Part shown: positions 6,389 through 45,900 of the stretch, piece by piece
How positions within the stretch are numbered: the stretch's first letter is position 1
How the letters are laid out: each line of letters starts with the position of its first letter
From: Caenorhabditis elegans
Taxonomy: Eukaryota; Nematoda; Chromadorea; Rhabditida; Rhabditidae
Assembly (NCBI RefSeq): GCF_000002985.6
Contig: NC_003284.9
Location: forward strand, 15,810,001 to 15,874,000
Direction: 5' to 3'
DNA length: 64,000 nt
Notes under the pieces: model-generated
The model's database searches: none
What the model saw: only the letters and a program-made list of their open reading frames with translations
What the model was told of the DNA's origin: nothing
Translations under genes and position numbers: made by a program

Positions 6389-7418
6389 TACTATATTTTT
6401 GCTTCTCATTCGCGTCACTGCGCCTGATCACGCATTTGAAACAGCTAAGCTGTACTGTTACAGCTTTAAATGTTATCATTATCCTATTCTGTCGTTTTTA
6501 ATTTTTGGGACGCTTCCTTTTTGTGAAACAAGTTTACGTGGACTTTATTACTTGGACTTTCAAAATCTCACTAGTTAATAGATTTTCAGATCAAGAAACT
6601 TTTCACAAAGATTTTTGTCATCGCTCATTTAACGGTGTAAGTTATTTGATGAATTTCTCTCACATTTGATAGCGAACTTTTGGAAAATTCTTATCACATA
6701 TTTCTGTAAATACAGTACATAGTTTTGCAAAAAAATTACTTTTTAAATCATTTGTTTATAAAGATTTTTGACTAATATACTAAACATTTTAATAATAAAA
6801 TAATACTAAACATTTTTCCAAAACGGTATTAGGTCTATTTAATTATAATAATTTAAAATTTTCAGCTTTCAGGTGATTAGATCTTGAGGATCTTGATTCC
6901 AATGATAACGAAAGTTGCTTGAGCATGATTCGCAACGCATAATCCACAATTTAAAGGAATTCAAAAAAAGAAGGGTAAAAAAAATTTCCTTCCAGACATA
7001 AACTACAGAGATTATGTTTTCAGTGCAACCAGCAACAAAATGACGTCATCGACGCCGTGAACTGCCTCTGCTCAAAGAACATTACCCGTTTCCAGCCATA
7101 ACGGATGAATGTTCAAATGTAAGAGGTTGCAAGAAGGGAACAGAAACGAGACAGTGGTGTCGTCTGCGTCTCCTGGCATATTTTTTTGTACAAAATTTTT
7201 GAAAATTTTTGAATTAAAAATTTTTTTTCTTGCATTTTTGCAGGTTCTAACCCAGACAATGGTCAAATAAAAAAACTGAAATGAACATATGTATTTTGGA
7301 ATTTAACAGAAAACACTTTTTGGCCGACTTCCATAGGTGAAAACTAAGTAATTGTCAATTTTTACCAATAAATTGAAAAAAAAGTAAATTTTATAAAATA
7401 TCAAAAAGCTCGAGTGTA
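6389..7418. other. Intergenic, nothing recognised
   Basis: A/T-rich sequence with no splice-consistent reading frame, RNA gene or repeat that I could support. Confidence 0.5.
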
Positions 7419-7992
7419 CAGTGCCGGCCAAAAATATATCCCGTTTTCGATTTTCGATAAATTTACCAATTTTCCAAACGAGCACAACTTAAAAACTAGA
7501 AATATTATCGAAAAAATTTCAACTGTTAAAGTATTGCCCATAATTGCGTCTACTTGTATTCAGTTGTTTCAGTTGTTTACCTGTGTCATAACAGCATCAA
7601 ATACAGCGACCGACCTCTCGCGAGCTCGTTTTTGACAACGGTTACTGATTCGGCCGTATCTCGAGAACTAATTTTTTTCTGGAAGTGTTGTTAGAGTAAA
7701 ATAGTCTTCATACTACTCGCCATCATTTGACATTTCCAGAAATAAATTAGTTTTCGAGATACGGTCGAATCAGTAACCGTTGTCAAAAACGGGCTAGCGA
7801 GATGTCGGACGCTGTATTTTTTGTTATGACACAGGTGAACAACTGAAACAACTGAATACAAGTAGACGAAATTATGGGCAATACTTCATTAGTTAAACTT
7901 TCTTCGATAAAATTTCTAGTTTTTAAGTGTCTCGTTTGGAAAATTGGTAAATTTATCCAAAATCGAAACGGGGTTTTTTTTGGCCGGCACTG
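7419..7992. mobile_element. Palindromic element with Tc1-like termini
   Basis: A 574-bp inverted repeat flanked by TA on each side (7417-7418 and 7993-7994). The left terminus CAGTGCCGGCCAAAAA closely resembles the recalled Tc1 end (CAGTGCTGGCCAAAAA), and the right end GGCCGGCACTG is its inverse. The arms are long and well matched: AATTTACCAATTTTCC pairs with GGAAAATTGGTAAATT, and GACAACGGTTACTGATTC pairs with GAATCAGTAACCGTTGTC. Only about 100 bp in the middle is unpaired. No transposase is present, so it is a non-autonomous fold-back derivative. Confidence 0.88.
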
Positions 7993-7994
7993 TA

Positions 7995-8669
7995 TATTAT
8001 AATATAATATTTTTAGATTGGTAACGGTGAAAAGTAAATGCCGACTATCTGAACACAAATACCGACTGCATTATTGAAAAAAACAACAATGAAAAAGGGA
8101 ACGATTGAATTGATTTAAAGAAAACTGTTGATTTTTGTAAAAATAAAAATAAACCTATTTTGTGTTTAAAACTTGAAATTTTTTTAGCTTGTTGTTATTC
8201 ATGGGTCTCGGATACCCGCTCATTATCTTACTCAATAATTTTTAACTCTTTTTTTGCTCAGATATTTTTAGCTTGAAAATGCACTCTTTTCTTCAACTTT
8301 TCAAAATATATCGGAGAATGTTAGATCATTGTTACGAAAATCAAAAATAAATTGTTTCCAATGATAGATACTATGTAGTTCAATTTTTTTTTTTTAATTC
8401 AAAAACAACGTTGCAAAATTTAACGTAGGCTATGCTCTGCATTTTGTCAAAAATTGAGATTTCCAGCTAATTTTTGACCGTTCATAATTTTTTTGTATTT
8501 CTAAAATGATTTCATCACATCACGAAATTTTGTCATTTTTAGACCATTTTTGTGCTCCAGTCTAAATTTTTAATTTTTATTAAAGACGTCTTGCATTTTT
8601 ATATTTTTTCGAAGCTTTTTTTGTGTTTTTGAACTGTCCATTTATTCTTCCTAAACCTTTTTTATTTCA
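7995..8669. other. Intergenic, nothing recognised
   Basis: A/T-rich filler between the Tc1-like palindrome and the first unit of the tandem array. No gene or repeat is supported. Confidence 0.5.
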
Positions 8670-9660
8670 GACTATCTGGAGGATGGTCAAATTTGATTCT
8701 TTCAAGTTTTAATTTTTCAATTTGCCCAATTTTAATTGGCATCAATTTCGACTCTCAAAGATGCCAAGAAAAAATTCTGCTTAGAAAAAGGACTAGGCAC
8801 TGCGCAAGAGGGACTTGAGCGAAAAGAAAAATTAGCTACTAAGTTAGTGAATTCACATTGAAACTCCAACAAGTTTGACATTCAGATCGTTCTGCAAAAT
8901 GCTCTGCCAGCTTCAACTTGAACACTTCGTCAAGCATCATATTGGAGCAACATGGTCAGATGGAGATTGAAATAGCGATTGCTGCAACTTGAAATGGTAT
9001 TTTCAATGGACAAACAAGAATAACGAGTTTGAAGTGAGTTGAACGAACGTGCAGCCGAAATCGATCTTGCTGCATTTTTATTTTGACAATTGCCAGATTT
9101 TTAAATTTTTCTGCATCGGCCTTCGGCCATGTTTAATCTACCTCTGAGCTTTGGAAGTCGTTTCTAGAAAGAGCTTTGGGTGTGTATCAAGTATCAAGTG
9201 GCTTAACGCTATTTTTTATTTATTTTTCGGCCTACGGCTAATTCTGTTAATTTAACAAGTTAATTTGGCCAAATTCAGCACAAAATGACTTGTCGTAAAA
9301 ACTTTTATAAAATCAAACTAATGTTGTCGTAAAACGAATAAGATTAAAAATTTTTAGGTGCAGATGCGCAGAAGGAGGGGATCACGAAACTAACAGAAAA
9401 TCTGTTTAAAAAAATTACTGCAAACTAGAAAAAAATCTGAAAGGACTGGAGCAACGGAAGGAAGATCGACGAATTTTCCAAACATGGAAATTGGATGATT
9501 GGAACAAAGAAAGAGAAGAGCAGAATCGATTTTTTTTTTGATGATTAGCATTCGAGACTGTTATTTTCACTTTCATAAAATTATATTATTTTTTAAACTG
9601 TTTCTAATAATTTTTTATTGCTTTGATGGGTTTCAGCTACCCGTTGTCTATCTATTTTTT
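8670..9660 (+). pseudogene. Array unit 1, coiled-coil family relic
   Basis: It opens with TTTCAG followed by ACTATCTGGAGGATGGTC, the array's 5' stem-loop (8670-8688) with one loop change. Behind it lies charged, Lys/Glu-rich broken coding sequence at about 8760-9060, including a patch reading as a lysine-rich coil near 8762. The unit ends with the 3' stem-loop ATGGGT-TTCAGCT-ACCCGT at 9626-9644. Stops follow the first ATG after a few codons, so no intact protein is predicted. Confidence 0.6.
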
Positions 9661-9969
9661 CCCAATTTTTTGTTGCCATATTCTTGAAACAATTAATTGT
9701 TTTTTTCACTTCTTGGACAGTTAATGTAGGAAAAAAATGTCTAAACTCCTTTAGCTTGGTTTTATTTGGAATTAGAAGGTCTATGAACTGTAGTTATATT
9801 AGCGTATATTTGGATTATGAAATTTTTAGACTAAAAAAGTTTTGGCAAAAAAAGAACAGCTCTTGGAAATTTTGTATCTCAAATCATAAAAAGTAGTTAT
9901 TTTGGAAGCCCAAGTATTGCTTAGTTCAAAAAAAAACGTATAATTTTTTTCAAGTTAATACACTTTTCA

Positions 9970-10806
9970 GACTATCTGGTGGATGGTCAAATGCTTTTTT
10001 TCAATTTTTACCCCTGAACAGTGCCAGCTGACGGAAAATTAGTTGCGAGTTAATGTAAGTTTTTTTTTACTTTTACTTCTAAGATCATTCTCTTGAGCGC
10101 TTGATATGAATTTTTCAAAAGTGAAATTTTAATTTTTTTTTCTATATGCAGTTAGATTCATTTAATCAAGCTTTCAATGTTTTTCAGCAGTACCATCTCA
10201 TCGATCCAACAAGAGTCAGCACCTATTTTAACACACGACAAACAGAACATCAAATGCACAAATATCGCATGGGTTTTGAAAACATTTTCTGCAAGGTAAT
10301 ATATATTTGCCTTTTTGTCTTTGACTATTTTTTCTTAACATTTTGAAAATCGTAGGCTATAATTTAGAAATGTTGATAGTTTATCGGCATAAGAAAACAT
10401 TTTGGAAAATATATCATCAAAATAATTTTTTTTAGCTGAACGCTCAAGAAGATCATGAAAGATGAAACAAGGAATGATTTGGAAATTGAGGAATTGAAGA
10501 ACATGAACTTGGGCTATAAGCTCTGAAACGGCAAAACCCACGAGATAGCGTAAAGTTTTTGAAAATTTTCGAATAGAACTGCTGACGGTCAAGGAGCTCT
10601 AGAAGTTTCAAGGGAACATCATAAAAATGAAATCAAGGCGCTGCAAAAAGCAGTCGGAGCAACATGACAAAATCGTAGAAAAAATGGAAGCCAATTCAAA
10701 TTTTTATGAACTGCTTTTGAGAGTTTTATTTTTTTCCATAAAGTATATATATATTTTTTTAATTTTTTTAACAACTTTTTTTGTTTGATGGGTTTCCGCT
10801 GCCCGT
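9970..10806 (+). pseudogene. Array unit 2, coiled-coil family relic
   Basis: The TTTTCAG acceptor is followed by the conserved 5' stem-loop (9970-9988). The first exon reads MVKCFFSIF, then a segment like PEQCQL, then a TAG where a sister unit has CAG, then LRV before a GTAAGT donor. The second exon at 10188/10191-10295 is open and reads YHLIDPTRVSTYF, then NTRQTEHQMHKYRMGF, with a CAGCAG tandem acceptor and a GTAATA donor. Lys/Glu-rich exon remnants follow at 10437-10640. The 3' stem-loop is at 10788-10806 (loop TTCCGCT). It reads as a pseudogene of a short coiled-coil protein. Confidence 0.62.
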
Positions 10807-11063
10807 TGGTTATCTATATTTTTGTTCTTCATTGTTTTTTAACGATCAGGTTTTTGTCAGCCTCCTTCTAATAATTACCAGGTTTATCAGCAGTTTTTGT
10901 AGCGTAGCTTTATCGGCTTATAAGCTTGAAATTTTTAGACTAAAACGAACATTTTCTTAGAAGATAGCACTCAATTTTCAAGCACAAAAGTTGGAAACGT
11001 AGTCGTTTTTGAACCTTACACTTTTAGATATTCAAAATTATTTTTCAAATCATTATATTTTCA

Positions 11064-11802
11064 GACTATCTGGTGGATGGTCCACTGCTTTTTTTTTAAA
11101 TTTTTACACTGAACAATGCCAATGATGGATTAGTTGCGAGTCTATGTCAAATTTGTGAGTTTGTTTTTAACTTTTTATGAAAAGTAGAGTGATTTCTCAC
11201 ATATACATATTTTTTAATTTTTTAAACGAAATTCAAAGTTTATATAAAATAATTATAGGATTAAAATGAAAAAGATTAAAAAATTTCAGGAGACTACCAT
11301 GAATGGATATTTGGTACCAAAAAATCAGAAACACAAAAGGAGGAAATCAGAAAGCTGATGGAAGCTGGGGCGACTGAAGATGAGGAAATTGATGATGAAA
11401 GGAAAAAGATCAATAATGCAGATGCACTGCGAAAAGATCAGCAGAAGCACGAGCAGGATGCCAGAAAAAGATGAGCTAGAGAAAAGCCGGAAAAATCTGA
11501 AGCAAGGAAGCAGCGTGAAATTTTATAATGTGCTCAAAAATGCAATGTGTTGAAAAGAATGATCGACAAAGCTTTAAAAATTGCAGAAAGCTATTGAAAC
11601 AAGAAATAGCTCACAAGCTCAACTTTGAGCAGACAGTTGATGACTATCAGGAACAACCAAGTATTGATGGACTACAAAGGACAATGCAAGCAAAATACAA
11701 GAAGAACAATTGCTTTGAAATTTTATTTTTTATTCAATAAAAGTTTTTTTTTGAGAACTGGGTTTAACTTTTATATTTGTTTAATGAGTTTTAACTACCC
11801 GT
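11064..11802 (+). pseudogene. Array unit 3, coiled-coil family relic
   Basis: The 5' stem-loop lies at 11064-11082. The first exon is thrown out of frame by a run of nine T after MVHC. A good open exon at 11290-11474 begins DYHEWIFGTKKSETQKE and continues as a highly charged heptad-like stretch (EEIRKLMEAGATEDEEID) before a stop. Further Lys/Glu-rich sequence continues to about 11720. The 3' stem-loop is at 11784-11802 (ATGAGT/ACCCGT, one mismatch). Confidence 0.6.
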
Positions 11803-11972
11803 TGATTATCTATTTTCCTGTTTATTGTCTCTTGTTAATTTTCATTCATCAAATTAGGCAATTCGTTTCTTAACCTAGATTTTTTTCCTAAATTTCCAAA
11901 TCCTTTCCAAGAATAACTAGACTATTTGCCTTTAAACTTAAAGTTCTGCAATTTTAAGAGCTTTTTCTGGTG

Positions 11973-12335
11973 TAAAGGTGGAGTAGCGCCAGTGGGGATT
12001 TTGTCTAAATGTACTTATGATGATCCAAAACAACCGAATATCTTAATAAAACACTCCAATAAATTTTAGATTTTTCATAATTTCCGGTCAAAGTTTTGGT
12101 AAGCTGCCAAAATTTTGAAAAATACGAGTTTTTGAGAAAATTTAAATAAATGTCACATGTTTCGGCTCTACAATGTTTTAATACAAATAATTTGAACAAC
12201 ATTAAAACATAAAAAATGCCGAAAAAAAAATTAAAAAACAAATTTTTTTGGAAAGTTTTATCATGATATTTGGTCATTTTGGGACCAAATGAGTGGTTTT
12301 TAACAATTTCCACACTGGCGCTACTCCACCTTTAA
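11973..12335. repeat. Palindromic MITE, GGAGTAGCGCCAGTGGGG family
   Basis: The left end TAAAGGTGGAGTAGCGCCAG is matched by CTGGCGCTACTCCACCTTTA on the right. It sits between array units 3 and 4 and explains why that spacer is longer than the others. Confidence 0.93.
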
Positions 12336-12499
12336 AAATTGAATTTTTTAGACTAAGCAATAATTTTAATAATAACTCTTGAAAACGAAGTCATTTCAAA
12401 GACTATTTCAATATTTTTTTTCAAACTGTTAGGTTTTAAAAATTCTCATTTTATGAAGTTGGGTTTTTCTACCCTCTTCTTAACTTGTTATAATTTTCA

Positions 12500-13325
12500 G
12501 ACTATCTGGTGGATGGTCAAATGTTTTTTTTCAAATTTATCACCCTGGGCAATGGTAATTAATGGATCTGTCTCGAGTTTACTTGAAATGTGTGAGTTTT
12601 TGAAACGTTTACTTTGCTTTTGAAAAGATATTAATATTCATTTGATTCACTATATTTCTAATTTTTTTAATGTTTTTCAGCAGTACCGCAAATTTTCTCA
12701 AACCAACAACATCTACTTCAAGACAAACCAAAAAGAGCAATGGCACAAGGAGAACATGGAGTATGAACGCACTTTCTAGAAAGTAACATTTTTTGTCCTT
12801 TTTTCTTTGAAATATGTATTTAAAATAATTTGTCTACTTTTATCAGAAAAAAAAAACTATATTTTCTTAGCATTCTAAAATACTCTAGACAGTTTGATTG
12901 TTTATTGTCATGAGAACAAATTTCGAAAAATAAGACATCAAATTATTTTTTTTCAGAACGACGCTTCAAAAGAGCAAGAAGCTAAAGCTCAAAAAGTGGA
13001 AATCAAGAAGCTTACAGCAAACGGAAAAAACAAGGACAAGGAAGTAAAGAAATAGAACCACGTGCTGATCTTCAAAACGCTGATGCGCCCCGAACAGAGC
13101 TTCAGAAGCAAAAAAAGGGCGCCGCAAATGAAAGCAAAGGATGAGCTGGAGAAAACCTGAAGATTGAAAAGTCAAGAGCCACATAAGCAGCTGAGATGAT
13201 AATAAATGATCTAGGAAACTATAAAACTGATATTACTGTTATTTTTTAGTTCCATAAATATGTTTAATTTTAGAACTTTGTTTAAAAACTTTTTTCTTTG
13301 TTCCTAATGGGTTTCTGCTACCCGT
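12500..13325 (+). pseudogene. Array unit 4, coiled-coil family relic
   Basis: The 5' stem-loop at 12500-12518 is followed by an open first exon reading MVKCFFSNLSPWAMVIN up to a GTGAGT donor. The second exon at 12681/12684-12779 (CAGCAG acceptor) reads YRKFSQTNNIYFK, then KEQWHKENMEYERTF, then TAG, where unit 2 splices instead. The third exon from 12957 (NDASKEQEAKAQKVEIKKL) carries two more stops and includes KDELEK, as unit 3 does. The 3' stem-loop is at 13307-13325. It is a pseudogene or a strongly decayed gene. Confidence 0.62.
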
Positions 13326-13405
13326 TTTCTACATACTTGTTCAAAATTGTCCTACTTCTTTTGTTTCTCATTTATCACATTTTTCGAAAAATTAGTACAA
13401 TTTCA

Positions 13406-14250
13406 GACTATCTGGTGGAAGGTCAAATGCTTTTTTTTCAAATTTTTACACTGACGAATTCAATGGACGAATAAGTTACAAGTTTTTCTGGAACATGTGA
13501 GTTTACCCCCTGGAATTTCATGAAAAATACGACGCTTTTTTAACTTAGGTTTGAAATTTTTCGTGATGGATTTTAATTTCTCTTTTCTATAAAAATCTAG
13601 ATTTTTCTGCTTTATTTCATTTCGAACGTTGAATTTTCAGCAGTACGAAGATGCTGAGAGATGAACTCAGCGAGTTGATCCAGATGAATGAAGTGCTCCG
13701 AGTGAAAAGTGATGGTTTCGGGATGCTCTAGGAGAGGCTCAACAACAAATAATCGATAGAAATAGGTTTGGGGAAGAAGGTATGTACACACGTGGTGTCA
13801 GGTTGATCTACGAAAAATGCGGGAATTTTTTCCCAAAAATATGTGACCTCAGCACGCTCTTAACCATGCAAAATCAGATGAGATGTCAGCGTCTCTTCTC
13901 CCGCATTTTTTGAAGATCAAAGAAAAATGGGACTTTCTGACTACACGTGTGTACAAAGCTTAACCATGAGCAGAACTGTGATATAATTCAAGAAATTGTA
14001 TTTTATTTAAAGTTGAAACATTTTCAGAATACGTTTGGGAACACCATCGGAAAGAAATCAAGGCACTGGAAGGGCGATTTGAGTAACTGAAGAAAACCAT
14101 GAAACAAGCAAGGGACACTGCAGAAAACGCGACTATTGAAGAACAAAAACTTAACAACTTTAATATTTTTTTCTTCCATAAAAATTGTTTTATTATTTCA
14201 TTCTTTTCAATGTTTTTTTTTAATTTTCTTCACGGGTTTCTGCAACCCGT
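13406..14250 (+). pseudogene. Array unit 5, coiled-coil family relic
   Basis: The 5' stem-loop at 13406-13424 has one broken pair (GAAGGTC), which also removes the usual ATG. One T fewer in its T tract would open the frame as far as a GTGAGT donor. The second exon near 13641 reads MLRDELSELIQMNEVLRVK. A later exon from 14027 reads YVWEHHRKEIKALEGRFE and then TAA, with the coil continuing beyond (KKTMKQARDTAENA). A small MITE (13782-13960) lies between them. The 3' stem-loop is perfect, ACGGGT/ACCCGT at 14232-14250. Confidence 0.6.
13782..13960. repeat. Short inverted-repeat MITE, CACACGTGGTGTCA type
   Basis: The ends TACACACGTGGTGTCAG and TCTGACTACACGTGTGTA are inverted near-copies, as are GATCTACGAAAAATGCGGGA and TCCCGCATTTTTTGAAGATC. 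A related partial copy lies in an acl-1 intron at 40364-40525. Confidence 0.82.
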
Positions 14251-15249
14251 TATCTTTTTTTGTTAATCGTTGTTTAGTTCGTTGTTTAGATAATTTTTCA
14301 TTTATCAGATTTTTTAAAACATTTCTTGTTCTTCACTTTTGGTCAAAAAAAAATTTTGAGTAAACTTTAAGATCTGAATTTTTGACTGTAGAGTAGTTTT
14401 TTTGTACGGTTTATCAGTTTAGCCTAAAACTTTCAAGTTGAAAAATTATTTCATTAAAAAAAGTTTTTCTCAACTTTCAATTTTCAAACTCAAAACATAA
14501 TAACGTAGGTCTTTCTTTAGTTCCAGTTGTGTACTTTTTTCAAAATATATAAGCTTTCAAGGTTCACATTGTTTGAATTTTGGTTTTTTAACCTTGTTTT
14601 CAAATTGTTTTGTTTTTCAGGCTATCTGGTGGATGGTCAAATAATTTTATTAAAAATTTTACCCTGAACGATGCCAATTGAAGGATAAGCAGCTGCGAGT
14701 TTATCTGGAACATGTGAGTTTGTCCTTTGAAATGTTATGGAAAAATTCGACAGTACTTTTACTTTTTTTTGCCGTTTGTTTGGAAATTTTCGGTGATGGA
14801 ACTTTAATTTCTACTTTCTATAAAAATCTAGATTTATTTGCTTTATTTCTTTTCGAACGTTGATTTTCAAGCAGCATGCTGAACAAATGATGCTGAAAAA
14901 TCAAGTTAGCCAGTTGAGCAAACATAAAAGTTGAATTAAATGCTCCGAGTAACATGTTTTGTGGGCGATTTTTGTATCAAACATTTCTATACACTATATC
15001 TACATTTATTTTCAGAAAATGAACTCAAATGTGAAAGGAGAACCTTGGAAAGTACATGTGGTCGGTGGAACATGGATAGAGAAGGCGAATAAAGCGGAAT
15101 CTGGATGTACGTTTTTTTCACTTTTTAATTTGATTTAAATCTGTTACTAGCGTGACATGACATCACCTTTTTAGTGTAACCATGTTTTGACATCTTCTCT
15201 GATTTGAGTTATTTTTAAAAAAAATGCTTCAATATAGAAATAAATATTA

Positions 15250-16493
15250 GGCTGTGAAAAAAGTTTTCTCCGAAATCTTACTCCAGTTCATTTTCTCAGT
15301 AACTTTATTTTTAGTCACTATCAATCAGCCATATAATCATCATTATTATTCACAACTGTGAACCACCTATTGGAAAGATCGTCCACCCTCTTCTTCCAGA
15401 ACGTGGGCGAGCGCGAGTTGAAGAAGTCGGACACTGATTTTTTGAGGTCTTCGAAGTTTCCGAACTTCTAATCTTTAAGAAACAGCTTGAGCGGGCGGAA
15501 AGGTGATAATCCAAAAGTGCAATGTCCGGCGAATACAGTGGATGGAAAACTGTGATCCAGCCGAACTCCTGCAACTTGGCCTGGGTGTCCTTTGCCACAC
15601 GAGGGCGCACGTTGTTGTGAAGAAGGTGGGCCGCGGAGTGTCTAGGGTGCTTTTCTTGGTCTGCGAGAGCGAGCGAATCCAGCTGATCAGAGTAGGTGAA
15701 AGCCGTGATTGTTCTGCCTTGCGGAAGCAACTCGAAAAACGACATATCCTTCGCGTCTCAGAAGCAGCGCAGCAAACACTTATTCTCATCGAGCTCCGGC
15801 TTTGGCTGCACAGACGGCTTCTCGTCATGTACATCCAGACAGAACAATGGGTGGCGTTATTATAGAGTAACCAGCTCTCGTCTCCGGTAACTATGTTCGC
15901 TAAAAAGTCTTTACTCTGTTGAGTGAGGAGGAGAGACTGACATATCGTCTCACGCGTCTGCATCTGAAACGAAAAAAGCATGAGGCACCCATCTCACCAG
16001 CACTCTTCTGTAGCCGAGCCAGTAAAAGTGGTTGCTGATAGCGTAATTACTACATTGGAGCTTTGTTGCCAATTCACTTGTAGTTTGATCCGGATTCTCC
16101 CTCACGGCGGCTCACAACTGATCATCGATCATGACAGAAGGCCTCCTGAGCGGTCGTTGTCATCGAGGCTCGTACATCCAGAAATGAAGCGAGCGAACCA
16201 ATAGCGAACGGTGTGATCGGTGACGGCATCCTTGCCAAACACGTTGCATATTTTAGCAGCCGTCTCAGCAGCACGAGCGCCTCTCTTCCACTCGGAGTAG
16301 ATGAGCAGTCGAAGTTGAGGTCAAGAAAGTTCGATCATCGTTGGTCGATCAGCAAGCGTGCGCGCTTTATATAGGCTTAGGGGAGATGCCACTAGGATGT
16401 TCTACAACATTCTATGATAGAATAGTCCAGAAAGCTGCAAAACGTTCCGGGGCATAACTTTCAATTATTTCGGAGAATACTTTTTTCACAACC
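15250..16493 (-). mobile_element. Degenerate mariner-family transposon
   Basis: A 1244-bp element with terminal inverted repeats GGCTGTGAAAAAAGTTTTCT and its inverse (AGAATACTTTTTTCACAACC), each flanked by TA (15248-15249 and 16494-16495). That is the expected mariner/Tc target duplication and size. The transposase reads on the minus strand. It has inserted within unit 6 of the coiled-coil array, so it is younger than that unit. Confidence 0.95.
15350..16370 (-). pseudogene. Mariner transposase pseudogene (D,D34D type)
   Basis: Two overlapping minus-strand frames carry family motifs. One (about 15745-15981) has VTGDESWLLYNN, matching the first catalytic Asp region. The other (15350-15745) has LHNNVRPRVAK and then YSPDIALLDYHL, matching the second and third Asp regions. 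They lie in different frames, so at least one frameshift near 15745 kills the gene. Helix-turn-helix remnants extend toward 16370. Changes such as DYHLSAR where a Phe is usual show further decay. Mariner transposases cut and paste at TA sites; this copy cannot make one. Confidence 0.9.
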
Positions 16494-16943
16494 TAATAAA
16501 TACTAATGACGCATCTTTTCTTTCTTTTAAGTTTTTTTTGATAAAATCAAAGATCACCGAAATATATGCTTTTAGCAAAAATAATATTTTCCAGATTCGT
16601 CGCCGATATTGAGCAGCGCCTAAATTGAAGTTCCCACCATGAGTATGACTTGGTTAATTTCACACCAAAACATTGTAATTTACAATGCTATCCTGGCCTG
16701 TCGTATATTAACTCTGTTAACACTTTTCCTTGTACCAACAATTTTTCTGTTACGTTTCCAAATTTGTTCACCTCAAATTGTTTATTGTGTTCTATAAAAA
16801 TTTGTTTAACAATTGCTTTTATCCTTTTTAAATTTGTTTATTGGGTTTCAGCTACCCGTTTGAAATCTTTTTGTTGTAACATATTAGTTAGCATTTCTAT
16901 TTTTCAGATTTTGAAATTTTCTTTCAAATTGTTATATTTTCCA

Positions 16944-18072
16944 GACTATCTGGTGGATGGTCAAATGTGTTTTTTTTCAAATATTTAACCTGAACGATGC
17001 CACTTGGCAGATCAGCAGTTCCAAGTTTGAGTGGATTATGTAAGTTTTTTACTTTTTTTCAGTTTCGCAAGTGGGCGATTAAATCCAACTGGTTTATTTT
17101 TAAAAAAATTGTTTTTTTTTAGAAACCCCACAAAGGCCCTCAAAACGACAAACAATTTTGAGGTCTGAAAAACGTCAACCCGAAGCGAAAAGAACTGCAG
17201 AAGCACTAGGAGCATGTGAACATCGAATGCATTTTTTGGGAAGGTAATATATTTTTGCATGTTATCAAATAATTACTCTCTTGGACTGTTTGCAATAGTA
17301 CAACTACCGGTATCAGCTGAAAACCCAATGTTTTCTTTGAGATTCAAAAACTTGGCTAAAACGTTAGTCTAGAGAAGAAATTGGAATTTTTCGAAGGTAT
17401 TTTCTAAATTAACAGTGTGAGAAGGAGCCCGAAATCTTTGTATACTTAAGTCATTTTAAAAGAAAAGAAACTGTATATTTTTAGCAATGTTTTAGAGGTA
17501 TCCGATAAGGTGTACATTTTGGCTATTTTGTTACCACCTTCACTTTGTTTCAAACACCTACATATATAGTTTTGCAAATACTGAAAATGCCAGAAAGAAC
17601 ATTCATCAAGATATCAGCTTCTTCAAAAAGTCAAGAAAGGAATTGTCTTATTTAGGACCAAGATGGAACATGGAAAATCAAGCACAAAATTTATGTTGGG
17701 CACAGGAAAAGCGGCAGAATGTTCTAGCACTGACCATCCAGTTTGCAGCAAACACGATTGTGAGCCTAAGTTGGTATGCTGGAATTAAAAAAAAGATCGT
17801 TATATTTCCAGGAAAAACTAGATTGTCGGAAAATTCACAAGATGGAAAGAGGCTGTCCGGGAAGATGAAAGTCCAATTGTTCGCCATGAAAAATCGTCTA
17901 ACTTTTATCAAAACAGTTGTGGCCAACGTCAAAGGGAACGAAACGAGTTGTTCCAGTTAACTTTTCCGAAAAAACTTAATATGTTATTTTTCTTTCATAA
18001 AGCTTTATTAGTTTTTAAACAATGTACCTAATTATTGATTTTAAATTTCTTTTATGGGTTTCAAATACCCAT
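16944..18072 (+). pseudogene. Array unit 7, coiled-coil family relic
   Basis: The 5' stem-loop at 16944-16962 is followed by an open first exon that reads MVKCVFFQIF, then NLNDATWQISSSKFEW, before ATTAT|GTAAGT. Later segments are Lys-rich but interrupted: one after 17120, and one at 17643-17960 reading with many Lys/Arg/Asn. The 3' stem-loop is perfect, ATGGGT/ACCCAT at 18054-18072, with a T-A pair where other units have C-G or T·G. Confidence 0.55.
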
Positions 18073-18359
18073 TGTCTATCTATTTCTTTGTTTTTTTTTC
18101 TATTTGTATTCTCTCCTTTTTAATCAAACTTTTAGATAGTTAAAGTTTTATATTTTGACTATTAGTCTAGTGAAAAAAGTCCTTGACCGAATTCTAAAGA
18201 AAACAGAATTATACCGGCTTATCAAGGAAATTTGCATTTTCGATATTGGTTAGGAAATTTTTCTATTAATTCTTTAATGATTTAAAAACTTTATCAAAAT
18301 ATATTAAGAAACTGTTACTATTTTGATTTCAATTTAAATCTAAGAATCGGACTATTCCA

Positions 18360-19373
18360 GACTATCTGGTGGATGGTCAACTTCTTCTTTTTCAAAATTT
18401 TCATTTTCTACTCTGAACTTCCAATGATGGAACAGACGGATACAAATGCAAATTTATATTATCAATGTAAGTTTTGAACAAATTTATTTAGATTTTTTTC
18501 ATAAATTTTAAAATAAGTTTCAAATTGGAATCAATTGTGGTGACGTGATCAAAACAAAACATTTCCAGAAAAAGAACATGAACTGATGATGGCTTCAAGA
18601 CCGAAATCTGGAGAGCATTGTACCGATGATGCTAGCTCTGCAGCTACTACTCTCTTCAACTTTGAGGTTTTGTACGCAATTTTAGAGCCTAAGCGTAATT
18701 TTAGAGCCTAAGCCTTCGCCTAAGCCTAAGCCTAAGCATTTGCTCAAGCCTAAGGCCCAAGCCTAAGCCAAGCATAATCCTGAGCCTAAGACTAAACTTA
18801 AGCATAATCCTGAGCCTAAGACTAAACTTTAGCCTTAGCCTAAGCCTAAGCCTAAAAGCATAATCCTGAGCCTAAGCCTCAAATTAAGCTGTAAGCCTAA
18901 GCTTGAGACTGATCCTGAAACTGAGTGTAAAAATTTAAGCATTTTTTAATAAACACTTGTGCAAGTACATGTCAACAACAGATATTTTCAGTGCCAAATT
19001 ACACCCAAGAGCAGACAGAAGTTCTGGAACTTATTGTGAAAATCTGAAGGAAGCTTATAACGGTAGGCAAATACAGAAGAATTCCAAAAAATGTCGGAGA
19101 ATTTCAGTTGATCTCAAGAAGAAAGATGTAGAAATTGCTCAATTGAAAAGTTGGTATTCCCAGATTTTGAATTCTTGAATTTCATGCGTTTTGCAGCTCA
19201 GCTTCAGGACGTTTACTATCAGAGGGAAATTGTGGCCTCACTATCAGCGATGATCAGTCGAATGTTAGTTCTGATAATAGCGACGGTACAAGTTGACAAT
19301 TTTTTTGGGAAAATACATAAATTGATTGTTTCAGGAAGCAGTAGAAGTAGTATGACAGATGAAAATAATTGAC
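18360..19373 (+). pseudogene. Array unit 8, longest surviving open segments
   Basis: The 5' stem-loop at 18360-18378 is followed by an open exon (MVNFFFFKIFIFYSEL, then PMMEQTDTNANLYYQ) up to CAAT|GTAAGT. The next exon from 18569 is open in one phase (EHELMMASRPKSGEHC, then TDDASSAATTLFNFE), but the simple join gives TAA. Later exons are 18993-19061 (LHPRADRSSGTYCENLKEAYN), 19112-19151 (DLKKKDVEIAQLK), 19197-19287 and 19335-19373. The 19197 exon is open in two frames: one gives QLQDVYYQREIVASL (coil-like), the other SASGRLLSEGNCGL ending SSRSSMTDENN. A tract of telomere-type repeats lies in the largest intron. It could be an active diverged gene with an unresolved junction. Confidence 0.45.
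18684..18905. repeat. Interstitial telomeric repeat tract
   Basis: There are many copies of AAGCCT/CCTAAG (the nematode telomere unit TTAGGC on the other strand), perfect in short runs such as GCCTAAGCCTAAGCCTAAGC and degenerate elsewhere (AAGCATAATCCTGAGCCTAA duplicated). It lies inside array unit 8. Confidence 0.92.
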
Positions 19374-19899
19374 GTCTTCAGAAAAAAAGACCAAAGACTT
19401 GGAATTCTTGAAAGTGAGTGATAGCCCAATTTAATTTTCTCTAGATCACATTTTTTTAAATTGAAAAATGTTTTTGAAACTACGTACGGGGAACGTTTCT
19501 TTTGAAAAGTAATTATTTAATAAACGCACCTCAAAAATATTGTGTTTAGTTTTTTTTAAATAAAAATGATAATTTTTTAAAAACGTAGGGTTTTTTTAGG
19601 CTCAGAAATTTGCAACTTCTAAGCCTAAACGTTTTCACGGTAATACTTGTTAATAGTGAAAAAAATTGGGGTCCGGCTACTATGCACCTTTAAAAATAAT
19701 ATTTCAGAAGCGGCGCCAATTAAACACGATCAAATGGATAATGATAATGATTTTATTTATATTTTGTATTAAATAATAACATTTTTAAGCATTTTGAATT
19801 GAATTTGTCTTCTTTTTGAATTGGGTTTAAAAACCTTTTTTTTCTATTTTTGTACTTTTTTCCACTTTTTTAAAACGTTTTGTTAAAAATTAATTTTCA

Positions 19900-20440
19900 G
19901 GTTCTTTGGTGAAGGGCCCCACATGATTTTTTTTAAATTTTCTAATAAGAATTTTGAAATGGCAAGGAACTTCATTTGAATTAAAGTCACAAAACATGGA
20001 TTACTTGCATATGTAAGTGAAAGTTTTTAAATTATAGAGGCATTTTCCGGGTAAGGAACGAAGAGTCGCACTTTTGTTCTTTTAATTCTCAATAGTTTTA
20101 CAACTGTTTTTCGCAAAATCTGAAAATAATAAAAGGTGGAGTACCGAAATTTGAGACTTTGCGTTTTTAGACCCAAAATGGTCCAAAATTACCAAATTTC
20201 GTAATGAGACGTTCTGAATTTTTTTAATTTTCGAAATTTTTTAAAATTTTATTTTTAATGACAAAAATCGGAATTTTTCGGCGGCAACAAAGCAAATTAC
20301 AAAATATTTTACCAAAATTTGATCCTAGATAATTTAATTAAAATTCTATAAATTGCAGTTAATCATGGCTGTTTGGTATGGAATGAGATTGCAATCAAGC
20401 AATATGTGGATGAGAGAAACTATGAAAGTTTACGTAAGTT
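19900..20440 (+). pseudogene. Array unit 9, divergent copy
   Basis: The TTTTCAG acceptor is followed by GGTTCTT-TGGTG-AAGGGCC (19900-19918), the same 7-bp stem and TGGTG loop as the other units but with different paired bases. The exon ends with SQNMDYLH before AT|GTAAGT near 20013. A later exon (20359-20431, TTGCAG acceptor) can read NHGCLVWNEIAIKQYVDERNY, but its phase does not match the preceding exon. It is duplicated as unit 10. Confidence 0.5.
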
Positions 20441-20869: not shown

Positions 20870-21265
20870 GTAGCCACCTCTCCAGTGATTTAGATATGAC
20901 AAGGAACTTCATCTGAATTGGAGTCACAAAACATGGATTACTTGAATATGTAAGTGAACGTTTTCGTGTTTTGACCATGACATCGTGATTCTTGACTAAA
21001 TATCTCTTTAGTCAGTTTTTAAAGTATTTTCTGAAAATTTTGTTTTTTCATGACACTTGGCCAAATCGGTATTTCTCGGCGGCTACCGATAATTTAGTGA
21101 ATTGTCAAATTAGCGAATTAAAAAATATTGGATCAAAATTTGATCCACAAACTAGATTTTTTCATCAAACTCGGATAAATTGCAGTTAATCATAGCTGTT
21201 TGGTATGGAATGAGATTGTGATCAAGCAGTAGGTGGATGAAAGAAACTATAATATGAAAAAAGTG
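20870..21265 (+). pseudogene. Array unit 10, duplicate of unit 9
   Basis: Two exons of unit 9 recur about 930 bp and 830 bp downstream. GGAACTTCATCTGAATTGG...GGATTACTTGAATAT|GTAAGT corresponds to 19965-20014, and TTGCAG|TTAATCATAGCTG...(NHSCLVWNEIVIKQ, then TAG) corresponds to 20359. The in-frame TAG marks decay. The 5' stem-loop is not recognisable here. Confidence 0.5.
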
Positions 21266-21417: not shown

Positions 21418-22077
21418 GTTTCAATTAGTCATCAAAAGTTTTGCAAATTGCTGCTCCTACCTTAACCCAGTATTTGATCAAGTAAGTTGTTTTAGAAAAA
21501 TGGAATTATTGTAGTCCCTGCGTTTTTTTTGGACTGTATTCATTATATCAAACAACTTTATCAAAGACAATGACTACAATTGGCTTGAAAAATTGAAAAA
21601 AAAAAAACATTTAACGCGGTTCGTACTTTTTTTTCGCAATTGTATAATAAAAGTAACTAGTTCAGTTAGGAAAAACTTATGTGGATATTCAAGTAGTGTC
21701 GATAGCTAAAAAATGTTGAGAAATGACGTCATAAATGTATAAAAATACATTTAAAAAATGTATTTTAATACAGTTGTGATGTCATAAGTGTATTTAAATA
21801 AATTTTGCAACATTACTTGAATAGCTCGAATATGCGCAAGTGATAATGATAAAATTTGAATTTCATGACAATGCTGGGTTAAAAAGTGTGATACGTACTT
21901 GTTTACTGAATCATATGACTTTGAAGCCCAACAAGGTGTAGATCATTTTGAATCTTGATTAAGAAAATTAAATTTAAAATTTAAAATTGTTGTTTCTTTA
22001 AGTTGCAGGTAACACATCACCGTCTTCTCAAATCATTGACCAAAAGTAGTCCCAGTATCCTCGTAGATCAACTATAA
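21418..22077 (+). CDS. Candidate terminal exons of an unrecognised gene
   Basis: Two exons join in frame. The exon 21418-21481 (TTTCAG acceptor, GATCAA|GTAAGT donor) reads FQLVIKSFANCCSYLNPVFDQ with its first base belonging to an upstream codon. The exon 22009-22077 (GTTGCAG acceptor) reads VTHHRLLKSLTKSSPSILVDQ and then a stop. The upstream exons were not found; unit 10 lies just before. An AT-rich inverted repeat occupies the intron. This may be the 3' end of the array's last member or an independent fragment. Confidence 0.3.
21688..21828. repeat. Inverted repeat, TATTCAAGTAGTG family
   Basis: The left arm (TATTCAAGTAGTGTCG, GACGTCATAAATGTAT) and right arm (GTGATGTCATAAGTGTATTT, TTACTTGAATA) are inverted. 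A second copy is at 39004-39144, with the same TACGTCACAACTGTATTAA and GACGTCATAAATG segments. Confidence 0.85.
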
Positions 22078-22744
22078 CTCCAACTTGTAGTTTATTAGGA
22101 AGCCTTGTGGGAAGCTGACCGGCAAAAAATGTTTAATGGAAAATTGGTAACACTGAGCTGAACTTTGTTCTTGCTCGAATTATAATTCGAAAAAGCCAGT
22201 GAATATCGATTTCTCCAAAACAATTGCCTGTGGGTCAACTCCTTACAGGGAAACCTTGTGAGCATTTCCCAATCCCATATTTCATGTCATCCCCCTATCC
22301 CCCTTCCTTGACTGTTTGTGTTATAGTACCCCTGTCCTGTCAATGACTTCTTGTGTTGAGGTCCCTGCTTTTTCCCAACTTTTTTCCCTTTTCTGAGCTT
22401 CTTGTGTTAAGGTTATAGTTGATTTTTTCAAACTTTTTCCAATTTTTTTCTCCTACCTTCTGCATCTTCTCATCGACAAACGTTGCCAAACTACCAACCT
22501 GATAGCAGATTTTTTAGTGAGTTTTAGTCAGTACAACTTTAGTAGGATTTTATTTAAAGCAAATATGTAGCAAAATTCGTTTTACATTTTTGAAAGTGGA
22601 GGCATGATACTTCTGATGTACCCTTACTCAAAATATTTTTCTACATTAACTTCCAACATATAGCTAGGCTTACACTTTTGGCTGAATATATAAAAAATTC
22701 CTAAAGCCCACCTAACGAAATCAAAAAGCTTCCCGTATTTTCAG

Positions 22745-23135
22745 TGCCTTACGGGTTGAAAACGCTGTTTCTCTACGAAATCACTTTGTCTGGTATGAGT
22801 ACAGTCTGGAAGAGCTCAATGATCATGATGAAGACGTCTACCGACATCATAAGCAAATGTTTGTAAGAAGCACCGGGAGTCAGTATAGCAAACAGCTCAC
22901 AATTAAAGTAAGTTTTTTTTGTGTGTATTGATTTTAATTCTTTGAATTTTGTTTTTCAGCGCCAACGTTTAAACAACACATTGGATGACTGCTATTGTTG
23001 CATGTTAGATTTACCGCGTAGGTAAGCGGATGAATAACAAACCGAAACATGAAAATGTATAAAAAAATTGATTTCAGCATGTGCTCGATGATTACAAAAG
23101 AGGGAAACATAACTTCGGCAGTCGAAAGTCGGTGA
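22745..23135 (+). CDS. Candidate C-terminal three-exon gene fragment
   Basis: Three exons keep frame: 22745-22907 (TTTTCAG; AATTAAA|GTAAGT), 22960-23021 (TTTTTCAG; CGTAG|GTAAGC) and 23078-23135 (ATTTCAG; TGA). The peptide reads LRVENAVSLRNHFVWYEYSL, EELNDHDEDVYRHHKQMFVR, then after the second junction NNTLDDCYCCMLDLPRSMCS and a short tail ending AVESR. It is about 94 residues, rich in charged residues with a Cys cluster. The splice sites and phases are all canonical, so this looks like a real gene's 3' part. The 5' exons were not identified; the exon at 22745 expects two bases from an upstream exon. I do not recognise the family. Confidence 0.45.
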
Positions 23136-24121
23136 ACATATTGGAAGGGTCAAAAAAGAAAGATGGGTCATATGCTTTATGTATTAAATTTAATTGTTTT
23201 CTAGTTTTTCTTCTAAAAAAAGTTTCTCAATAAAATTTTATTCGATATCTTGAAATATGGTACGATATTTTCAAATAAAAATAATATTTTTCTCAGAACA
23301 TTTGAATTTTCTACGTTTGTATGTACACTGCGCCCAACTTCTATAGCGCTCCCTTAACTTTTGAACTCTACCACATTCTGAATTTTTTATCAAAAAATGG
23401 TTAATGTCATTCGATTCCAAATGTCAAAAACCCCCTGTCCAAAATTTTTATGAAAATATATGGAAAACTACATAAATTAGGTGAAAAAATCATAAAAATG
23501 ACCGCCTAACTTCAAGGCGTCCCCTCAAATTTTTGACATTTTTCGATAAAAACAATGAATTTAAAAATGAAACTGAACACAGTTTGCAATTTTGTAACGT
23601 CCAAAAGTGTTTTGACGTCTCATTTGGGTATTTTTAGACAAAATTTGGTACGTAGAAACGCGATAGGTGTTCTAGAGTGTCCTGAAACGCTCTGATTTTC
23701 GTTACAGACCAGTTGATGTACCATGTTGCAGATAACAATCAGGGCTGGGAATTTTTTGGTTTTTTTGTTTTTTGTATTCTGGTTTTTTTTTTGTATTTTG
23801 ACGAAAAATCGATTTTTTTGGAACCAAAAAAACCAAATGGTCTCGCCACGCACCCCAAAAATCAATGAGTGGCGCGTTTCGAGACCATCGCACGTAAATG
23901 CGCCCCCCTTTAAAGCCGTAGAAGTAGAAAAAAATACACTGTATTTACTGGTAATAATCTTCTAGAATAAAATATGATAATTAAATAAAAGCTGATTTAT
24001 GACCGCTGCAACACGGATATGTAGCCAATATTGAAGAATATATAAAAAATAAGCTTTTTCTTTTTTTTAAATCGTAATAATAAATATTTATATAACTATA
24101 CAGCAACAAAAAAACAACCGA
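23136..24121. other. Intergenic, 3' flank of acyl-CoA oxidase
   Basis: No gene is supported. It includes a poly-T-rich patch (23745-23830) followed by TGGTCTCGCCACGCACCCC and GTTTCGAGACCATCGCACG near 23835-23895, which resembles a dispersed worm repeat. The sequence nearest 24121 would be the oxidase 3' UTR. Confidence 0.45.
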
Positions 24122-42974: not shown

Positions 42975-45900
42975 CTAGTCTTCATAGCTTCCGGCCCCCA
43001 CTCTTCTGGGTTCACGGTCAGGCTGGAAAGAGAAGTCGTATCTCAAACTGTGCCGTATCGAAGATTGATTTTCATACTCTGGACGAATGATCCATAATTG
43101 CCAATTTTCATGAAACTTGGCAAACGTCCAGAAGATATCGTAAATGAAAAACATTCGAATCGGGTTTGAACGGTCTGCATTTCTCACAAACAGTTCTCGA
43201 AGCTTCTTTTCCGTTTCACCGTAACATTTCAGCATATGAGAGCGAACATCGACGGCCATTGCAACAAGAAAGTTGAGCTGCAAAATATTACAGTGTTAGT
43301 TTTTTTTCTCTCGAAAATAAGCTATACCTCTTCCCGGTCAGAAGTCCTGGGTACCATTGGATGAACGGCTTCCCAATACGGGTCTATCTGCATTGGCTCC
43401 ACGTAGAATTCAGGATTTGGTGGATCCAAAGTCGGTTCATCGACTATCTGATGATACATCTGCCTCCAGTAGCGCGCAAGACGACTATCGCTGGAAATAA
43501 AAAAGTTTAGTTTTTAATCGATTGCCCCTTTAGCTTGACTTACATCTGTATAATACTTCTGACGGCCCGATTCACAACATCTCTGCTTTTAATCCGGTCA
43601 CTGGTCGTAGAGTGATATTGAAAAGAGGTGAAGTGGGTCCTGATTGTGTCTAAGCGAGTCGTGTCAATGATTGAAGAGAGAAGCTGCTTGTCTTCATACT
43701 CCAGAAGCCGGTTCTTCTGAATAAAAAATATTAAAAGTTAAACTACAGTAATGAGAGTACCATATGCGATTTAACAACTGGCATGTCGTTTTTTCCAGCT
43801 TTTATTTTTGGTCTCACAGTAAGAAACTCTTCCAGTGTAGTTCTCGGGACAAATGGCTCGAACTTGGGATCAGATAAAAGTCTGGAAGCCAAGCCGCTCT
43901 CCCACAGCTTTCTGTAAAAAAAAAGTTATTTGAGTTTAACTACCAAACTTTGCGAGCAGTTTCAAATAGTACCCCAATTGAATTTTCTCCTAATTATAGG
44001 CGGAGTAGTGCCAGTGTGGAAATTGTTTCTAAGTTTTGCCACTTTTTGAGAAAACTATCGCGTATTCTCTCTACAATGTTTGAACATTGATTAAAAAAAA
44101 CATAAGTAAACCGAAAAATTTGAAGGGCATTTTTTCGATTGTCGGCTTTCAAAAATGTGCAAAAGCTGAGTAACTGCCACTTTTCTACCAGGGCTGTGCG
44201 GCAACCGGGATTTCCGGCAACCGACAATTGCCGAAGTTGTCGAACCCGAAAATTTTCGGCAACCGGCAACTGCCTAAGTTGCCGAACCCAAAAAATTTCG
44301 GCAACCTGCAATTGCCGAAGTTGTCGAACCCAGAAATTTTCGGCAACCGGCAACTTTCGATTGCCGAAATTTCGGCAACTTTTCGGCAACCGGCAACCAA
44401 GTTTTAAATTTTTTTTGTTGAATTTATATTTTTGAGGGGTTTGGCAAAAAATAATGGTCGTTTTCTCGTTTACGGCGAAATATTAGCATTTTCAGGCTCT
44501 CCGAATGCTTTTTCTGAGCTACAGAATTTTTGACATTGATATCGGCAATTGCCGAAGTTGCCGATTCCAAAAAATTTCGGCAACCGGCAACTTTTGGTTG
44601 CCGAAACTTCGGCAACTTTTCGGCAACCGGCAACCCGGTTGCCGGTTGCCGCACAGCCCTGTTTTCTACTGTAAATCAAAAATGTTTTCAAAATGTTCAA
44701 AACGTTTTACTATGATTTATGGTATGTTTAACACGATTCGAGCTGTTTACAACAATTTACCTGCAGACAATACTCCGTTTTTTGATAACTGGAGCAAGTA
44801 CACACCAGAGCAGGGCGAGTTGTTGCCGGTTTCCGAAAATTGTTGGGCTCAGCAACTTCGGCTATTGCCGGTTGCCGAAACTGTTTGGGTTCGGCAATGG
44901 TAACTTATTCAAACATCGAAAATTCGTACGAAACAATGGAGCTTTGGAAATATTTAATTTTTCTAATTTGCCAACACTTTTTTCTCTCCAATTTTGCATT
45001 TTGGGATAATTCGGAGAAATGAAAAAATTGCAAACACACACTAATTTTTTTCAACTCACTTGAAATAACTTGAATCTTCAACTGTTCCCTCTGAGACCAG
45101 TCTGACTACGGTAACGTCTTCCACTTTTTTCGTGAGGAAAGACATCTCTCTCGTATGCTTTACATCTGAATCCGGATTCCATTCTGGATCAAAAATAATA
45201 ACTTTATTCGCCTTCTTCAATTGCATTCCCAATTTGAACATGATCGATGGTGCCAGCAGTATTTGGACATCAGTTGTGTTCTCAAAATAATTCACAACAT
45301 TCTCGCGATCATAAGCATTTTTCGCTTTGAGAAATGAGCAATATGCAATTCTGCAATTAAGACAGATGCATTTTCAATTTAAAAACATATAAAACTGAAT
45401 ACCTTTTCTGCTTCATGAAGTGCTCCAGCATCACTGCCACCTGCCTTCGCTGGGTAAATATGACAACCTTCGCGCCAGGCGTGCCGAGCCACATATCAAG
45501 CAACTGGAACACTATCCTAACCTTCCCACTATCTTCAATTGATCCGAATTTTTTCGTCTCCGGAGTTACACCTTTGTGGATTCCCGGGTGGTCGCAGATA
45601 TCGGTAAGCTTCTTGAGACCCACGCAAGCGGCAGAACTTTGGCGCAAAATGCCTTGAACCTCGTCGGATCTTTTGTAGATCTTCAAGCATCGGCGTTGGC
45701 GTTTCGAAAGCGGACAGATAATGTCCTGAAAAAAAAGTGTTTGTTCAAAATATTGCTTTACAAAAATTCTCACTTTAATGTGTTCCACTTCTTTCTTCGA
45801 TATCTCTCGCCGACAAAACCAATCGTTGGGATTCTTGATCAATCTGCTCAAGATCAGAGGTTTCAGCGCAACATGTAATGCAACAATGCATTCATAAGCA

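Follow-up and report, generated by a model that had tools for sequence, protein, structure and literature searches.

A conserved 19-mer with folding potential in a decayed tandem gene family on the Caenorhabditis elegans X chromosome

Introduction

Why would a short sequence able to form a hairpin persist at the start of each unit of an array whose coding parts have decayed, and is it the hairpin that selection has kept? The question is raised by a stretch of Caenorhabditis elegans chromosome X (15.81–15.87 Mb; positions 15,810,001–15,874,000), the whole 64,000 nucleotides (nt) of which we call the window, where a 19-mer recurs nine times on the plus strand. A sequence-only reading of the window had described nine tandem units, each opening with a perfect 7-bp hairpin around a constant TGGTG loop, and had taken compensatory changes in the stem as the product of selection on RNA or cruciform structure. 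We find a real, strongly conserved 19-mer with real folding potential, and compensatory evolution that is without independent support. With somewhat better than even confidence, we read the 19-mer as the junction of a splice acceptor with the first exon, repeated across a local tandem family of small nematode genes that are mostly broken.

Results

The array is built of head-to-tail units of 0.9–2.3 kb each, with copies in tandem over 10 kb, and pairs of units share differing longer blocks (for example, 13401–13703 with 14615–14950). All nine 19-mers lie where they had been reported. Copies 2 (9970–9988), 3 (11064–11082), 4 (12500–12518), 7 (16944–16962) and 8 (18360–18378), five of the nine, are letter-identical and give the consensus GACTATCTGGTGGATGGTC, which has five exact matches in the 100-Mb genome, all inside the array. 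The loop, said to be constant, is TGGAG in copy 1 (8670–8688), whose 19-mer is identical to that of a relative at X:16,909,248. Nor is the hairpin perfect in every unit: in copy 5 (13406–13424) the arm GAAGGTC places A opposite A, losing one of seven pairs and turning the presumed start ATG into AAG. The change of A to G in copy 6 (14620–14638) keeps its pair as a wobble (A-T to G.T, or G.U in RNA), and copy 9 (19900–19918) keeps all seven pairs with seven of its 19 letters changed, both as described; matching the consensus at 12 of 19 letters, copy 9 is a doubtful member. Directly before each of copies 1–8, following a T-rich tract, stands TT(T/C)CAG, so that the TTTCAG attributed to every unit is TTCCAG at copies 7 and 8. 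A T-rich tract ending in CAG is the worm 3′ splice consensus, and such a tract ends at the presumed exon start in copies 1–8 and also in copy 9. The first G of the stem is the G of this CAG acceptor.

Copies 1–8 and one relative on the minus strand at X:16.909 Mb are clear homologues, and with them eight of the nine proposed units stand, the membership of copy 9 not being secured. Across these nine sequences, compared ungapped, mean pairwise identity is 0.956 in the 19-mer, 0.843 in the six bases upstream, 0.463 in the 24 bases preceding those and 0.653 in the 21 bases downstream, the flank values being understated by the ungapped comparison. The 19-mer is therefore far better conserved than its flanks, beside decayed coding sequence, as had been proposed, and the difference in identity indicates constraint on this short word, or its homogenisation, as the sequence around it diverged. 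The relative is part of a block (X:16,905,300–16,912,300) 1.09 Mb away on the opposite strand, pieces of which match window positions 1363–23281 with their order mostly kept. This block holds only a single unit and a single copy of the stem-loop described below, and around the 19-mer it retains the same conserved block, with flanks 74% identical.

The fold is uncommon at comparable sites. Seven pairs in this register were found at none of 129 other plus-strand and one of 121 minus-strand TTNCAG sites in the window, and at none of its 139 other TGGTG words on both strands. Since copies 1–8 share their fold by descent from one ancestor, the fold counts once. Taken as isolated 19-mers, copies 1, 2 and 6 fold better than all 200 shuffles, which bears out the capacity to fold, and copy 9 better than 193 of 200; the hairpin of copy 5 has −3.4 instead of −7.4 kcal/mol, and 25 of 200 shuffles fold equally well. 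At exon length, five of six copies are no more stable than shuffles; the sixth, copy 8, is more stable, but in a different fold. Within precursor messenger RNA (pre-mRNA), the predicted pair probabilities are 0.77–0.98 in copies 2, 4, 5 (except the broken pair) and 9, 0.10–0.37 in copies 1, 3, 6 and 7, and 0 in copy 8. In model mRNAs carrying the spliced leader SL1, from which copies 3 and 8 were left out, they are 0.56–1.0 in six of the seven copies tried and about 0.4 in copy 5. SL1 sequences of this genome are clustered near 17.12 Mb on contig 5.

The evidence for compensatory change depends on copy 9. With all ten sequences (nine distinct), three of the seven pairs are changed on both sides and the score is reached by one of 500 shuffles; in this alignment the X:16.9 row sat two bases off and was padded outside the stem, whereas the alignment of the nine secure sequences is correct. 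Without copy 9 (nine secure sequences, eight distinct rows), none of the seven pairs is doubly changed and the score equals that of all 500 shuffles. Two stem changes occur within copies 1–8, giving one broken pair and one wobble, and all three compensatory pairs are contributed by copy 9. Thus the pair counts beat shuffles when copy 9 is included, and the signal that had been read as selection on pairing is gone when it is not.

How copy 9 is to be regarded was judged in several ways. Under a covariance model built from the nine secure sequences it obtains 16.4 bits (E = 0.092), the top unselected match, with the next chance site (L018) at 15.9 bits; two chromosome I sites (L007 and L008) outscore it, at 22.3 and 17.7 bits, but these had been chosen because they resemble the 19-mer and so do not count as fair chance matches. 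A model of sequence alone, built without copy 9, does not report it at E ≤ 10. With an exon profile of copies 2–8 its E-value is 0.015, where an unrelated site at 44476 reaches 0.033, and it is absent at E ≤ 10 from the matches to a profile of the sequence that follows the 19-mer. It matches 12 of 19 consensus letters, as against 11 of 19 for the best of 250 unrelated TTNCAG sites. In the sequence beginning about 50 bases downstream of copy 9, 19951–20027 matches its neighbour 20888–20964 at 90%, and the acceptor of that neighbour carries no such hairpin. If copy 9 is homologous, seven random changes leave all seven pairs intact in 2.7% of simulations and also spare the loop in 0.07%, which is suggestive but concerns one sequence chosen after the fact. 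With 12 acceptors between 18,400 and 21,500, chance would not be expected to supply another fold of this kind with TGGTG. The status of copy 9 is doubtful: it cannot be dismissed, but the claim needs more than a single sequence chosen because it folds. The sequences compared here neither demonstrate selection on the fold nor refute it.

Beyond the right end of the array, decayed gene pieces form another, smaller tandem pair: 19951–20027 with 20888–20964, and 20291–20423 with 21112–21250 (82%).

A second element accompanies the 19-mer. Eight stem-loops of the form GGGT-N7-ACCC on the plus strand alternate one-to-one with the secure copies 1–8. That before unit 1 (8203–8217) was found by a profile of the other seven (E = 0.00048); the members of that profile precede unit 2 (9628–9642, with CATAAA 54 nt upstream), unit 3 (10790–10804), unit 4 (11786–11800, with one pair broken and AATAAA upstream), unit 5 (13309–13323), unit 6 (14234–14248), unit 7 (16843–16857) and unit 8 (18056–18070). 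An (A/C/T)ATAAA hexamer lies 50–60 nt upstream in all seven stem-loops measured, a count without shuffle control, and a TATCT-type motif with U-rich sequence follows downstream in most copies. Genome-wide, ATAAA, stem-loop and TATCT occur together four times, three times within the array and once at X:16.908 Mb, and never in the reversed control. From stem-loop to acceptor, the distances for units 1–8 are 465, 342, 274, 715, 97, 384, 102 and 304 nt (start points ± about 2 nt); the 715 nt of unit 4 include a repeat at about 11973–12336. The second stem-loop shows no two-sided change, and its pairing equals that of shuffles. The alternation of stem-loop and 19-mer suggests a gene end followed by a splice acceptor, and the gaps of about 100 nt in units 5 and 7 are too short for a promoter and an upstream exon.

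The repeat at 11973–12336, inserted before copy 4, has relatives at many other places in the window.

That the units hold decayed coding parts of a tandem family was borne out: the tandem units are homologous, and stops and frame damage are present. Presumed donors lie 84–106 nt beyond the acceptor CAG in copies 2–8 (84, 90, 89 or 91, 90, 93, 95 and 106 nt, counted by hand). The presumed second exons of units 2 (10188–10295, plus strand, open frame) and 4 (12681–12785, plus strand, with an in-frame stop) align as protein with a score of 51, the best of 1000 shuffles reaching 27. The phase-0 start of the presumed second exon, and the fact that four exon-1 lengths (84, 90, 90 and 93) are divisible by three, favour the frame of the ATG at leader position 13. 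In this frame a 12-nt leader, ACTATCTGGTGG, would be followed by ATG GTC, and the frame reaches the presumed donor open in copies 4, 7 and 8 and is open for 44 codons in the X:16.9 relative. Translated pieces of the array matched nothing outside it, one search returning five array places and a second, insensitive search that missed most copies returning three. No Pfam family was matched by the three array open reading frames (ORFs) scanned.

Beyond the window, 25 places in the genome carry the 19-mer with at most three mismatches (reversed control, four), of which eight are the array and one is the X:16.9 relative; L007 and L008, two of the remaining 16, have flanks without similarity to the window. 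We rejected the 19-mer as a dispersed element, its exact matches being confined to the array and the flanks of these two sites being unlike it. The pattern TTTCAG-N6-TGGTG occurs 181 times in the genome and 54 times in the reversed control. A known RNA family was likewise rejected, with no Rfam match at gathering scores in the whole window, as was a transfer RNA, with none found under a bacterial setting. In a literature search by clone names, no title among the matches listed was about the array.

Several other features were recorded in and around the array. The stretch 7417–7994 is a near-palindrome, 86% identical to its reverse complement in an alignment of 592 columns. A broken mariner-type transposon (15245–16498) lies between units 6 and 7 and has 32-bp inverted ends, 94% identical, and a Transposase_1 match on the minus strand. 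Inside unit 8, 18686–18902 is a degenerate array of the 6-mer AGCCTA, the worm telomere repeat. A 1.3-kb segment at 22047–23281 is 74% identical to the X:16.9 block; it has no frame open throughout, and the single ORF scanned gave a sub-threshold Pfam match only. Two SNF2-related stretches on the minus strand, at 45357–46430 and 53615–54331, lie about 8 kb apart and match the same Pfam model at 74 and 145 bits. An acyl-CoA oxidase also lies to the right of the array.

Discussion

The reading that we prefer, a splice acceptor meeting a first exon, would have each gene begin at a 3′ splice site, a T-rich tract closing with CAG, which probably served the trans-splicing of a spliced leader. The acceptor would be followed by the 12-nt leader and then by the start codon. 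At the gene end would come a poly(A)-like signal, 50–60 nt further on the GGGT-N7-ACCC stem-loop with its TATCT-type U-rich tract, and then the next acceptor. The array would have been made by tandem duplication, with leader and start remaining nearly fixed while the rest diverged. The hairpin would then be a property of the fixed sequence, either incidental or, if the genes are transcribed, formed at the 5′ end of the mRNA over the start codon. As the last base of SL1 is G, the first G of the stem would be regained on trans-splicing.

Several observations weigh against this account. When the second exons of units 2 and 4 are compared, their differences fall 8, 16 and 15 times at codon positions 1, 2 and 3 (34 codons), which leaves no mark of protein constraint between them. 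Stops interrupt the ATG frame in copies 1, 2, 3 and 6, and the ATG itself is lost from copy 5, so that this is one candidate frame of exon 1 among three. The TATCT motif is missing from some stem-loops, and six of the eight stem-loop-to-acceptor distances (274–715 nt) exceed typical operon spacing.

Other explanations place the constraint elsewhere. The 19-mer may have been kept by a protein, through the frame CTA TCT GGT GGA TGG TCA (LSGGWS), with the fold a by-product of its codons; we consider this doubtful. Four of the six variable columns around the 19-mer are third positions of that frame, including GGT to GGA in copy 1 (nine sequences, by hand), and copy 5 is open in it as far as the presumed donor, but four of six is not significant, the phase-0 second exon and the exon-1 lengths favour the other frame, and a search with the copy-5 exon matched only three places in the array. 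Selection on the hairpin itself, as RNA or cruciform structure at the unit start with copy 9 a true diverged member, strikes us as unlikely. It draws on the three doubly changed pairs, on the rarity with which random change keeps the pairs and loop of copy 9, and on the shuffle comparisons of isolated copies 1, 2, 6 and 9. Set against these are the absence of covariation without copy 9, whose membership is unproven, the broken hairpin of copy 5, matched by an eighth of its shuffles, the ordinary stability of five of six exon-length copies and the different fold of copy 8, and a pre-mRNA stem that is predicted to be likely in only four of nine copies.

Gene conversion or recent exchange, rather than constraint, would also keep the 19-mers alike, and suits tandem copies in which pairs of units share different longer blocks; yet about 26 nt would be an unusually short tract for eight copies to share, and the block is also kept by the relative at a distance of 1.09 Mb, between flanks 74% identical, so we hold homogenisation to be very improbable. 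Hardly probable at all, in our view, is that the CAG is an initiator-like transcription start from which the mRNA would begin with the hairpin. A T-rich tract before the CAG fits the splice consensus instead. What speaks for such a start is that poorly trans-spliced C. elegans mRNAs can form 5′-terminal hairpins, with seven and six pairs reported for vit-2 (Bernard et al. 2023; PMC9984361). The array resembles these mRNAs in a stem of about seven pairs at a possible mRNA 5′ end, and differs in that its hairpin follows acceptor-like sequence, its genes are mostly broken and its folds are predicted only; with such hairpins already described in worms, a terminal hairpin here would not be a new kind of thing.

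A bolder form of our preferred account is quite improbable. In it, trans-splicing would complete the hairpin, the last G of the leader closing the stem with the start codon in the 3′ arm, and the structure would gate translation of the whole family, copy 9 being a diverged member with compensating changes.

The proposed order of signals has a known counterpart in SL2 operon junctions. In worm operons, the gene end is followed by the Ur element about 50 nt after the poly(A) signal and by the acceptor about 100 nt downstream; the Ur element is a stem-loop with UAYYUU. The array resembles such junctions in that a poly(A)-like signal is followed, after about 50 nt, by a stem-loop with its U-rich TATCT-type tract and then by a T-rich CAG acceptor, and in two of its eight units (5 and 7) the acceptor is about 100 nt away. 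It differs in the greater length of most stem-loop-to-acceptor distances, and its stem-loop sequence is shared only within its own family. Local tandem families of genes and pseudogenes in C. elegans offer a further likeness, in head-to-tail units, stops and frame damage, mariner and repeat insertions and a related block on the X chromosome, whereas here the translated pieces match the array alone and the three ORFs are without a Pfam family.

If the ordinary explanation holds, the locus is a caution that one loosely related copy can mimic a covariation signal, and that a conserved word at a splice site can resemble an RNA element. Were the bolder form true, this would be a worm 5′ leader conserved for a structure that spans the start codon and is completed through trans-splicing. 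In both cases, the alternation of eight gene starts with eight stem-loops makes a compact natural series, which lets one ask which gene-end and gene-start signals outlast the decay of the coding sequence.

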